Source: Deltaproteobacteria bacterium (GTDB lineage Bacteria; JAUYMQ01). From it: DNA of 7,850 nucleotides. Position 1 is the stretch's first letter, and each line of letters opens with the position of its first letter. The notes under the pieces were generated by a model, which was given only the letters and a program-made list of their open reading frames with translations, searched no databases and was not told the origin of the DNA. Made by a program: the position numbers and the translations under genes. Positions 4,866-6,971 of the stretch are shown here, piece by piece. The stretch is taken from contig JAUYMQ010000013.1 in the NCBI GenBank assembly GCA_030698575.1, positions 1-7,850 of the forward strand, written 5' to 3'.

Positions 4866-5717
4866 ATGCTGCGTGTCGTTTCCATCAACGGCCGCCTTCT
4901 TCCCATGCGCGAAGCGCGCGTGAGCGTGGCAGAGGGGGCCTTTCTGTACGGCGAGGGGATCTTCGAAACCGTTCGCCTGTATGACGGCAGGCCGCTCCTG
5001 CTCCAGAGCCACCTCGAGCGCGCCTCTGCCGGAGCGAAGCTCCTGGGGCTCAAGCTCCCGCCGGGCCGGACGCTCGAGCGCGAGATCGCCCGCCTCGTCG
5101 CCGCTAACCGGGTCCGGGGAGATGCAGTCGGCCGCATTACGCTCTCGCGCGCACCTTCGAGCCGTCGCGTCGCCGCCGCGCGGGCCACGCGGGTGCTGAT
5201 CCTGCGATCGCTGCCGGATGATCTCGCGCGCCAGTACGAGCGCGGGATCCGGGTTCGTACCCTTCCCTTCGAGCGAGCGGTCGGCCCGGCCGCGGCCATC
5301 AAGCACCTCTCCTATCTGCCAAGCATCCTTGCCCTTCGCGCAGCGGATCTCGCGGGCGCCGCCGAGGCGCTCTTCCTCTCGCCGGGGGGCCAGGTGCTCG
5401 AGGGCGCCACCACGAACCTCTACGCCTGCATCGACAACACCCTGCTCACGCCTCCCGCCGACGGAAGGATCCTCCCGGGCGTCGTGCGCCGGCACCTCTT
5501 CTCACTCGGCGGGGAGGGACTTCCGCCCATCAAGGAAGCGCCTATCAGCCGGGCCGATCTTGATCGGGCTTCAGAGGTCTTTCTGACGAACGCGGTCCGG
5601 GAGATTGTGCCGGTCGTCCGCATCGACGCCCGCCCCGTGGGCGGCGGGCTTCCGGGGCCCGCGACGCGGGCGGCGCAGATGGCGTGGCGGGCCTTCGTGG
5701 CCGGGCTGGCCGGGTAG
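4866..5717 (+). CDS. pabC: Aminodeoxychorismate lyase (class IV PLP aminotransferase fold)
   Basis: Most likely cleaves 4-amino-4-deoxychorismate to 4-aminobenzoate and pyruvate, the step after PabB. The 283-aa protein is a complete class IV PLP enzyme: YGEGIFETVR at 28-37, the Schiff-base lysine Lys146 in IKHLSYLPSILA, the cofactor-phosphate region EGATTNLYA at 179-187, LPGVVRR at 203-209 and the C-terminal EVFLTNAVREIVPV at 237-250. D-amino acid and branched-chain aminotransferases share this fold, so sequence alone does not settle the substrate; its place directly after pabB favours aminodeoxychorismate lyase. The ATG at 4866 has no good SD, but it opens directly into the conserved N-terminus and no better start is seen. 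The stop at 5715-5717 is followed by the non-coding block that holds the small RNA candidate. Confidence 0.85.
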   Translation: MLRVVSINGRLLPMREARVSVAEGAFLYGEGIFETVRLYDGRPLLLQSHLERASAGAKLLGLKLPPGRTLEREIARLVAANRVRGDAVGRITLSRAPSSRRVAAARATRVLILRSLPDDLARQYERGIRVRTLPFERAVGPAAAIKHLSYLPSILALRAADLAGAAEALFLSPGGQVLEGATTNLYACIDNTLLTPPADGRILPGVVRRHLFSLGGEGLPPIKEAPISRADLDRASEVFLTNAVREIVPVVRIDARPVGGGLPGPATRAAQMAWRAFVAGLAG

Positions 5718-5849: not shown

Positions 5850-5868
5850 CAAGCCTTTGAATTCAAAG
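5850..5868. promoter_or_regulatory. IHF-like core overlapping a 14-bp palindrome
   Basis: CTTTGAATTCAAAG (5855-5868) is a perfect palindrome. On the minus strand, ATTCAAAGGCTTG (5862-5850) matches the IHF core WATCAANNNNTTR at all defined positions but one. It stands between the half-sites and the sigma-54 promoter, about -80 to -62 from the predicted start, where a DNA-bending site is often found at such promoters. It could instead be an operator for a dimeric regulator. AT-rich sequence follows to 5886. Confidence 0.3.
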
Positions 5869-5902: not shown

Positions 5903-5921
5903 CTGGCACGCTTCCTGCTTT
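5903..5921 (+). promoter_or_regulatory. Sigma-54 (RpoN) promoter, -24/-12 type
   Basis: The sequence reads C-TGGCACG-CTTC-CTGC-TTT. It matches the consensus YTGGCACGNNNNTTGCW with one difference (C for the first T of TTGC) and exact spacing between the GG at 5905-5906 and the GC at 5917-5918. The predicted start of transcription is near 5930. Such promoters need RpoN and an AAA+ enhancer-binding activator. No protein gene on this strand follows before the terminators. Confidence 0.8.
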
Positions 5922-5929
5922 AGTCATGA

Positions 5930-6019
5930 ACCAGAGTGAGTGTTTTACCTTCCAAACTTCTTTCTGCGGAAGGGGCCGATGGTGGTATCCGTGGCTGGCC
6001 ACCATCGGCTTTCTTTTTT
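5930..6019 (+). ncRNA. Candidate sigma-54-dependent small RNA, about 90 nt
   Basis: The unit runs from the predicted sigma-54 start to the end of a T-run. The first about 18 nt look unpaired. CCTTCC (5948-5953) pairs perfectly with GGAAGG (5968-5973), enclosing a 14-nt pyrimidine-rich loop containing CTTCTTTCT. One base later an 11-bp perfect stem begins and ends in a T-rich tail, as in an intrinsic terminator and a possible Hfq-binding 3' end. An ATG at 5926 lies upstream of the predicted start and has no SD, so a peptide is unlikely. The exposed loop or the 5' tail could pair with target mRNAs, but no target is visible here. Sigma-54-dependent small RNAs are known, for example Pxr of Myxococcus xanthus; I cannot say whether this is a relative. 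A long untranslated remnant or attenuator is the alternative, made less likely by the second terminator and the oppositely oriented next gene. Confidence 0.62.
5975..6019 (+). terminator. Intrinsic terminator forming the 3' end of the small RNA
   Basis: GCCGATGGTGG (5975-5985) pairs without mismatch with CCACCATCGGC (5999-6009) around a 13-nt loop. TTTCTTTTTT follows directly (6010-6019). The T-run is on the plus strand only, so it is directional. Confidence 0.9.
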
Positions 6020-6021
6020 GG

Positions 6022-6048
6022 GGCCCGGGGCTGTTCCCCGGGCCTTTT
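6022..6048 (+). terminator. Second plus-strand terminator directly after the first
   Basis: GGCCCGGGG (6022-6030) and CCCCGGGCC (6036-6044) form a perfect 9-bp stem with a 5-nt loop CTGTT, followed by TTTT. It starts 3 nt after the T-run of the first terminator, a backup against read-through into the convergent gene. Confidence 0.75.
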
Positions 6049-6070: not shown

Positions 6071-6097
6071 AGGAAAGGGAGCCCATCGGGCTCCCTT
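6071..6097 (-). terminator. Terminator of the zinc-knuckle gene
   Basis: A perfect 10-bp stem (6075-6084 with 6088-6097) with a 3-nt loop lies 25 nt after the stop codon of the minus-strand gene. On the minus strand the stem is followed by the moderately T-rich TCCTGTT; the plus-strand side is less T-rich, though some bidirectional action is possible. Confidence 0.7.
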
Positions 6098-6122
6098 CTG
6101 ATTCGCGATCATGCGAGCTGGC

Positions 6123-6497
6123 TCACCCTTCAGGCTTCGCCTCCTCATCGCCCCCTGCCGGCTCGGCGGGCGCTTCTTTCACGGCTTCGGTGGAGGCTTC
6201 AGCCGGGGCTGCCGGCGCTACCACAGCCTCCGCTGCGGCGGGAGGAGCAGCCGCCTCGGCAGCCTCCGAACCCTTTCCGCGTGCCGAGCGCCACTCGTTC
6301 AAATGAGTCTCGCACAGGCCCATGGCGTCCCGCTTGCCCAGGCATTCCTCCTTGGAGCAGATCTTGAAGCGGGCCTTGCCGTACTTTCCCTGGCGCCACT
6401 CGCGGTAGTGGACATTGCAGTAGGACTTGGCCCGGTAGGGGCGCTTGCACCCCTCGATGCGGCAGCGCTTTTCCACCTGGGTCACTTGCGCGGTCAA
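6123..6497 (-). CDS. Small protein with two CCCH zinc-knuckle repeats and an acidic Ala/Pro tail
   Basis: Function unknown; the 124-aa protein is probably cytosolic. It holds two copies of C-x4-C-x9-C-x2-H: Cys12, Cys17, Cys27, His30 and Cys47, Cys52, Cys62, His65. The copies are offset by exactly 35 residues and each is followed by x3-WR or a close match (YREWR, LNEWR), so they look like an internal duplication. Each copy could bind one zinc. Similar CxxxxC...CxxH units occur in phage and HNH-type proteins and in small basic proteins of deltaproteobacteria (from memory). The knuckle part is basic; from about residue 71 the tail is low-complexity Ala, Glu and Pro. A nucleic-acid- or ribosome-binding role is only inference. 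The TTG start at 6497-6495 is fixed by GGAGGTGA (6509-6502) four bases before it; the longer open frame upstream covers the promoter. The next gene upstream is divergent. Confidence 0.85.
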   Translation of the reverse strand: MTAQVTQVEKRCRIEGCKRPYRAKSYCNVHYREWRQGKYGKARFKICSKEECLGKRDAMGLCETHLNEWRSARGKGSEAAEAAAPPAAAEAVVAPAAPAEASTEAVKEAPAEPAGGDEEAKPEG

Positions 6498-6501
6498 GGA
6501 C

Positions 6502-6509
6502 TCACCTCC
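6502..6509 (-). promoter_or_regulatory. Strong ribosome binding site fixing the TTG start of the zinc-knuckle gene
   Basis: GGAGGTGA is an exact eight-base match to the anti-SD complement, 4 nt before TTG (7 nt from the GGAGG core). Confidence 0.85.
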
Positions 6510-6512
6510 ACG

Positions 6513-6527
6513 GCGCCCGCCGGGCGC
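6513..6527 (-). promoter_or_regulatory. GC-rich hairpin just upstream of the SD
   Basis: GCGCCC (6513-6518) and GGGCGC (6522-6527) make a perfect 6-bp stem with a 3-nt loop, 3 nt from the SD in the leader. A second small hairpin, CCCTC/GAGGG at 6561-6573, is also in the leader. They might stabilise the leader or affect translation; in such GC-rich DNA they may be incidental. Confidence 0.3.
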
Positions 6528-6579
6528 GATCGTCATAGGTTCGGGACAGCTCTCCAAAGGCCCTCTGCGAGGGGGGCTG

Positions 6580-6608
6580 AAGTTATCGCCGGGGGCGCGT
6601 CCTGTCAA
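6580..6608 (-). promoter_or_regulatory. Candidate sigma-70 promoter for the zinc-knuckle gene
   Basis: A perfect TTGACA (6608-6603) is followed after 17 nt by TAACTT (6585-6580); GATAAC at 15 nt spacing is an alternative -10. Transcription would start near 6573, giving a leader of about 75 nt. Confidence 0.5.
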
Positions 6609-6656: not shown

Positions 6657-6971
6657 ATGTCAACGCTTCCGTCAAGAAACCGCCGCTTCGATCTTTACCA
6701 GGATTCGAAGCTCCGCCGGGCGCTCGACGCCCAGCGGCTCCTCGAGGCCATCCGGCGCGACATGCAAGATCCCGTCCCACGTGGCACCCTCTCCGTGCGC
6801 CCTGTTCGCATCGGGAAACGTCTCCGATACCGGCTCGAATACGCCAATCCCGCCATGAGCTGCAGCCGCATCACCTTCCTGACACCCGGAGAACTCGAAC
6901 GCCTCCACAGCATCGTCGGAGAAGCAGGGGACCGCCCGCTCCTCGACGAGCGGCAGGATGAGGCGAGCTGA
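6657..6971 (+). CDS. Hypothetical protein, 104 aa, probably translated from a leaderless mRNA
   Basis: I do not recognise this protein. It is 104 aa, soluble, without signal peptide or membrane segment, and rich in Arg and Leu. The first half (residues about 8-37) looks like an amphipathic charged helix; the middle (about 44-63) reads as beta-strand (TLSVRPVRIG, RLRYRLEYA), and TFLTPGELERLHSIV at 73-87 as a turn and helix. It has one cysteine, Cys69. Support for a real gene is the good promoter ending at the ATG, third positions rich in G and C, and a stop that fits exactly between neighbours: the convergent minus-strand gene ends 4 nt away. It is not related in any way I can see to the zinc-knuckle protein with which it shares a divergent promoter region. 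Confidence 0.7.
   Translation: MSTLPSRNRRFDLYQDSKLRRALDAQRLLEAIRRDMQDPVPRGTLSVRPVRIGKRLRYRLEYANPAMSCSRITFLTPGELERLHSIVGEAGDRPLLDERQDEAS

Follow-up and report, generated by a model that had tools for sequence, protein, structure and literature searches.

A candidate sigma-54-dependent antisense small RNA gene between a pabC-like gene and a zinc-knuckle gene in a deltaproteobacterial genome

What does a sigma-54 promoter produce when no gene follows it on its own strand? The question is raised by a stretch of 7,850 nt (the window; contig C188 of the assembled genome of an uncultured bacterium), in which such a promoter lies between a pabC-like gene and a zinc-knuckle gene that runs toward it. 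A preliminary description had interpreted this gap as a complete sigma-54-dependent small RNA (sRNA) unit. This is still the best reading, as the promoter, the terminator and the lack of a downstream gene all stand. Judged from the sequence, a sigma-54-switched small RNA gene between two ordinary genes is very likely.

The sigma-54 promoter and its genomic background

The promoter and the genes that border it are:

4866-5717, plus strand: pabC-like gene (Aminotran_4, PF01063, E 1.5e-49), upstream of the sRNA
5904-5920, plus strand: sigma-54 (-24/-12) promoter, TGGCACGCTTCCTGCTT, predicted from sequence, matrix score 17.0
6077-6099, minus strand: hairpin AAGGGAGCCC..GGGCTCCCTT, probable terminator of the zinc-knuckle gene, separating that gene from the sRNA
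6123-6608, minus strand: zinc-knuckle gene, convergent with the sRNA, no Pfam family

The GG (5905-5906) and GC (5917-5918) of the promoter are separated by exactly 10 nt (GG-N10-GC), a spacing that would put +1 at about 5930, 12 nt past the -12 element. A matrix written from the published consensus was used to scan a 1.04 Mb sample of the same genome (4.13 Mb on 653 contigs; about 4% of the sample reads N), with the reversed matrix as a control. Twenty-four sites reach the score of the window's site or surpass it. All 24 are intergenic, though coding sequence makes up about 85% of the sample according to rough gene calls, made with a crude caller that missed, e.g., pabB. Nearly all 24 are found 40-500 nt upstream of a same-strand gene. 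The reversed matrix gave no site at the window's score, and at a threshold of 16 it gave 3 sites vs. 30 with the real matrix. The site set includes sites preceding an ammonium-transporter-like gene, pilin-like genes and a PEP-CTERM gene. Since the top-scoring sites are all intergenic and the reversed matrix yields none, the window's site is very unlikely to be a chance match. The near-consensus sequence with exact spacing noted in the preliminary description is borne out by the matrix score and the empty control, and 5904-5920 is very probably a working sigma-54 promoter.

The genome encodes RpoN and, across its whole length, about 19 long matches to NtrC-type sigma-54 activators. No activator site was identified with confidence upstream of the sRNA promoter. 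One weak candidate lies in the window:

5855-5868, no strand: perfect 14 bp palindrome, CTTTGAATTCAAAG, upstream of the promoter, possibly an activator site

Over the 220 nt upstream regions of 31 sigma-54 sites, GAATTC was seen 6 times vs. about 1.4 times expected from the intergenic rate, which is a modest enrichment. Palindromes centered on this hexamer are found upstream of the sigma-54 promoters of both the sRNA and its candidate target on contig C25, discussed below. Those observed near sigma-54 sites are the one at 5855-5868 of the window and others at loci L124 (minus strand, upstream of 3846), L191 (~2974) and L236 (~8207). A different palindrome, GGGAAAA-(G/C)-TTTTTCCC, recurs 100-160 nt upstream of sigma-54 sites at loci L125 (~3478), L126 (~2375 and 10745) and L192 (~2246), and several of its copies are near PEP-CTERM genes. 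This palindrome is likely to be an activator-binding site and differs from TTTACA, the motif known for the PrsR system.

The predicted RNA and its ends

Transcription from this promoter would yield a short RNA with the following elements:

5930-6019, plus strand: predicted small RNA of about 90 nt, based on promoter spacing, fold and lack of a complete ORF; its start is the one predicted from the promoter
5948-5973, plus strand: alternative 6 bp hairpin, CCTTCC (5948-5953) with GGAAGG (5968-5973), and a 14 nt pyrimidine-rich loop, AAACTTCTTTCTGC
5975-6019, plus strand: intrinsic terminator (z -4.4), a perfect 11 bp stem of GCCGATGGTGG (5975-5985) and CCACCATCGGC (5999-6009) with a 13 nt loop and the T-rich tail TTTCTTTTTT (6010-6019)
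6020-6046, plus strand: second, backup terminator-like hairpin, GGGGCCCGGGG..TCCCCGGGCCTTTTC, with a TTTT tail (-23 kcal/mol, z = -3.4)

The 90 nt RNA folds with an MFE of -34.0 (z = -2.75 vs. shuffles), mostly because of the terminator. A terminator as strong within 130 nt is found at only 16 of 4000 random intergenic positions (0.4%). Set against this background, the original account of a unit of about 90 nt, ending in a perfect 11 bp stem and a T-rich tail, holds. The 6020-6046 hairpin, directly downstream of the terminator, was missing from that account. The 6 bp hairpin was part of it and was placed beside the terminator. It does exist and is preferred when the 5′ half of the RNA folds alone (-8.2 kcal/mol), but it is a minority fold. 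At full length, the RNA adopts it with a probability of about 2%, and GGAAGG becomes part of the terminator's base.

Two other products of the promoter were rejected. There is no complete reading frame within 5930-6019, which excludes a small ORF inside the RNA. The leader of a downstream plus-strand gene is ruled out by the terminators and the opposing gene; as had been described, no same-strand gene comes directly after the promoter, and the next candidate ORF on this strand (6657-6971) is located beyond three hairpins and the opposing gene. The ORF at 6657-6971 encodes 104 aa with a codon usage typical of the genome, runs opposite to the neighboring genes and is possibly an unannotated gene.

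It could be argued that there is no dedicated sRNA at all, that the terminator belongs to the pabC operon and that the sigma-54 site yields a short transcript that is functionless or unstable. pabC is indeed upstream on the same strand and is without a convincing terminator of its own before 5975. However, the distance from pabC to the terminator is 260 nt, whereas a high-confidence promoter lies just 60 nt before it, and at this score there are essentially no spurious sigma-54 sites. The presence of two tandem terminators suggests that stopping of the transcript matters. We therefore think this explanation unlikely. We give still less credence to a role in cis, in which antisense read-through or polymerase collision would affect the convergent zinc-knuckle gene. 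The end of that gene is only about 100 nt beyond the end of the RNA, but two strong plus-strand hairpins and the gene's own terminator lie in between, and an effect of this kind is very improbable.

Candidate targets of the RNA

Returning to an independent sRNA gene as the preferred reading, we compared the region with its own genome by BLAST and obtained two further hits, on contigs C25 and C634, each of them antisense to a gene. The contigs C188, C25 and C634 all have the composition of the bin. The two segments of the RNA concerned are:

5932-5948, plus strand: 17 nt stretch complementary (one G-U pair) to the stop-codon region of a PEP-CTERM gene, C634 6060-6076
5950-5971, plus strand: 22 nt antisense stretch complementary (two G-U pairs) to the ribosome-binding region of a zinc-ribbon gene on C25

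The sequence points to the C25 zinc-ribbon gene as the target and more weakly to the PEP-CTERM surface protein. The C25 gene encodes a 167 aa zinc-ribbon protein without a Pfam family and is preceded, at 245 nt, by a sigma-54 site of its own. Its leader and the RNA segment can form 22 contiguous pairs, including the two G-U pairs, between positions -25 and -4 relative to the first ATG. The duplex energy of -35.8 kcal/mol compares with opening costs of about 9.0 and 6.8 kcal/mol. Targets were scored by contiguous-helix energy across starts because global duplex folding against the starts gave unrealistic long interior-loop duplexes. The C25 duplex is the best among 900 starts, with a dinucleotide-shuffle p of about 1e-3 in the 1-Mb sample and thus about 4e-3 genome-wide. 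When the comparison is with the 26 sigma-54-driven starts, none of 2000 shuffled RNAs does as well (best -27.7; Gumbel p about 1.6e-5), a figure that has to be discounted somewhat because the sigma-54 link was spotted only after the match. When all positions of the sample are considered rather than starts, a duplex as stable as this has a p of about 0.03 per Mb sample and is no more than moderately rare.

We consider it moderately probable that the locus encodes a sigma-54-dependent, trans-acting antisense sRNA that masks the start of the C25 gene and perhaps touches a PEP-CTERM mRNA. The stretch would be an independent small RNA gene at which RpoN-polymerase binds the -24/-12 site. Once an NtrC-type activator has been turned on, the polymerase would make an RNA of about 90 nt, stopping at the T tract of 6010-6019. 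The RNA would work in trans by base pairing, with 5950-5971 pairing over 22 nt with the zinc-ribbon mRNA and covering the ribosome-binding region to 4 nt before the ATG. Since the 22-base pairing lies on the ribosome-binding site, the RNA probably blocks ribosome binding, and with it translation of the C25 gene. As this gene has a sigma-54 promoter of its own, the pair would amount to a loop of the feed-forward or timing type within the sigma-54 network. With RNA and target both needing sigma-54, the target would be delayed or capped, not simply switched off. The link to a nitrogen, surface or developmental signal suggested in the preliminary description is a guess.

hfq was not found in the genome, which is 91.6% complete, and this speaks against an Hfq-dependent sRNA. 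The long duplex would thus probably form without Hfq or with another chaperone; a duplex of 22 bp may need no chaperone.

The sRNA could also be real and sigma-54-dependent while its complementarity to C25 is accidental, in which case it would have other targets or bind a protein. The evidence from the promoter and terminator is independent of any target, and for shuffled RNAs, too, a long G-U-rich duplex can quite often be found at some place in the genome. The segment 5950-5971 is also partly paired in the full-length fold, i.e., the best fold of the RNA partly hides it. Against an accident, the match falls exactly on the ribosome-binding region of a sigma-54-driven gene in the sense orientation, and none of the 2000 shuffles does so. 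We regard an accidental match as a serious alternative, if a rather unlikely one.

For the antisense sRNA that we prefer, the match to C634 is suggestive of a second contact, in which the segment 5932-5948 may touch the 3′ end of the PEP-CTERM mRNA. The 17 nt pairing is part of a 41 nt match of 80% (genome-wide E 9e-4), and pairing at the stop codon would be without clear consequence. Alternatively, the match may be due to descent: at about 5945-5972 the minus strand reads ...FRRKKFGR-stop, which resembles a PEP-CTERM protein tail and aligns in frame and at the stop with ...FGRKKLRK-stop of C634. The locus would then be a relic of the 3′ end of a minus-strand PEP-CTERM gene, and its similarity to C634 would be due to common descent and not to RNA pairing. 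This we find barely plausible. There is no PEP motif or membrane segment upstream of FRRKKFGR-stop on the minus strand, conservation in the match is best at the stop codon and over the next 12 nt rather than in the coding part, and a relic leaves the promoter, the terminator and the match to C25 unexplained.

Other candidate units, relatives and known systems

Two further sigma-54 units without a gene were found among the high-scoring sites of the 1.04 Mb sample. At C304:6615 (L229:6614-6836), a sigma-54 site with a score of 20.0 precedes an RNA of ~194 nt (z -4.3) with a 15 bp terminator and opposite-strand genes on either side. At C403:581 (L234:580-865), a site with a score of 20.7 precedes a structured RNA of 259 nt (z -4.3) with a 13 bp terminator, and there is no same-strand gene for 527 nt. 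These are candidates for a second and third sigma-54 sRNA, and they support the idea of several sigma-54-driven RNAs in this lineage. A broader and more speculative proposal is that an Hfq-free RNA layer exists in the sigma-54 network. The gene-less units (in the window, on C304 and on C403) would make structured RNAs, and the RNA of the window would shut a co-regulated sigma-54 mRNA via the 22 bp duplex and touch the mRNA of a PEP-CTERM surface protein, so that one sigma factor would provide both messages and antisense brakes. Taken as a whole, we think this proposal improbable, though not negligibly so. If the antisense sRNA itself holds true, a deep-branching lineage would have a first antisense RNA under sigma-54 control, one whose target is concrete and testable, and this would suggest that regulation by sigma-54 sRNAs reaches well past the gamma-proteobacterial and myxobacterial cases.

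The comparison with Rfam called for in the preliminary description was run, and the RNA matches no family; the only match in the window is an unrelated, sub-threshold one elsewhere (isrG, E 0.67). A search of ten sigma-54 loci against Rfam gave nothing credible. Among the genomes searched, the window's own is the only one of its phylum. Matches to the prolyl-tRNA synthetase (ProS) are at most about 60% identical and come from deltaproteobacterial MAGs, where the gene order is absent. No related loci were found via the zinc-knuckle protein among the genome contigs searched; its homologs elsewhere are about 40% identical and have no sRNA or sigma-54 unit beside them. A search of the sRNA DNA against 395 genomes of the nearest reachable phylum gave matches in 3 genomes at E <= 1e-3 vs. 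about 0.4 expected. The three are in unrelated contexts, one being merely another sigma-54-like promoter, and we judged them to be at chance level. Thus, no homolog of the sRNA was found in the 395 genomes, nor was one of the C25 target protein. If the RNA is real, it would also show that a clean set of sigma-54 sites combined with a terminator filter can find such RNAs where comparative methods fail.

Sigma-54-driven sRNAs had been called rare, which is not borne out, as Qrr, GlmY/GlmZ, CrcZ/CrcY/CrcX, NrsZ and Pxr are all documented. Qrr, GlmY/GlmZ and NrsZ have sigma-54 promoters under two-component NtrC-type activators (LuxO, GlrR and NtrC) and act by base pairing or via a partner RNA. They are conserved in their clades, their activators are known and several use Hfq. 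The locus in the window shares with them a sigma-54 promoter, here ahead of a predicted RNA, but Hfq was not found and the candidate pairing is long (22 bp). CrcZ/CrcY/CrcX are RpoN-dependent sRNAs that are activated by CbrB and titrate the Hfq-Crc complex (PMC8657755). An RpoN-type promoter ahead of a known or predicted sRNA is common to both, whereas neither their repeated binding motif nor Hfq was seen here.

The promoter itself resembles those of RpoN-dependent PEP-CTERM genes of the PrsK/PrsR type. In Aquincola, the RpoN promoter of the PEP-CTERM gene pepA has been mapped experimentally and has the hexamers TGGCAC/CTGCTT (PMC9850573), the same as the site in the window, and PEP-CTERM genes with sigma-54 sites are present in this genome, which has 14 PEP-CTERM sites above cut-off. 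In contrast to the PrsK/PrsR systems, the product here would be an RNA. No PrsR was found in the genome above the NCBIfam cut-off (best 437.8 bits vs. 502.6), and membership in a PrsR regulon (PEP-CTERM box) was rejected on this ground. The TTTACA enhancer motif of the PrsR system (PMC1569441) was not seen in the 100 nt upstream of the window's site.

Pxr of Myxococcus xanthus is a short intergenic RNA with three stem-loops and a sigma-54 promoter; it is flanked by the sigma-54 regulator nla19 and an NADH dehydrogenase gene, and Hfq was not found in the genome (PMC5568312). The predicted RNA is like Pxr in its sigma-54 promoter, in being short and intergenic with stem-loops, and in that no Hfq was found in either genome. 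It differs in having one terminator hairpin and an alternative 5′ hairpin in place of a triple stem-loop, and in its pabC-like and zinc-knuckle neighbors; Pxr is set apart here by neighbors and fold, not by a direct sequence comparison. The sigma-54-dependent sRNA is an established kind of regulator, of which the RNA predicted at 5930-6019 is itself a new candidate.
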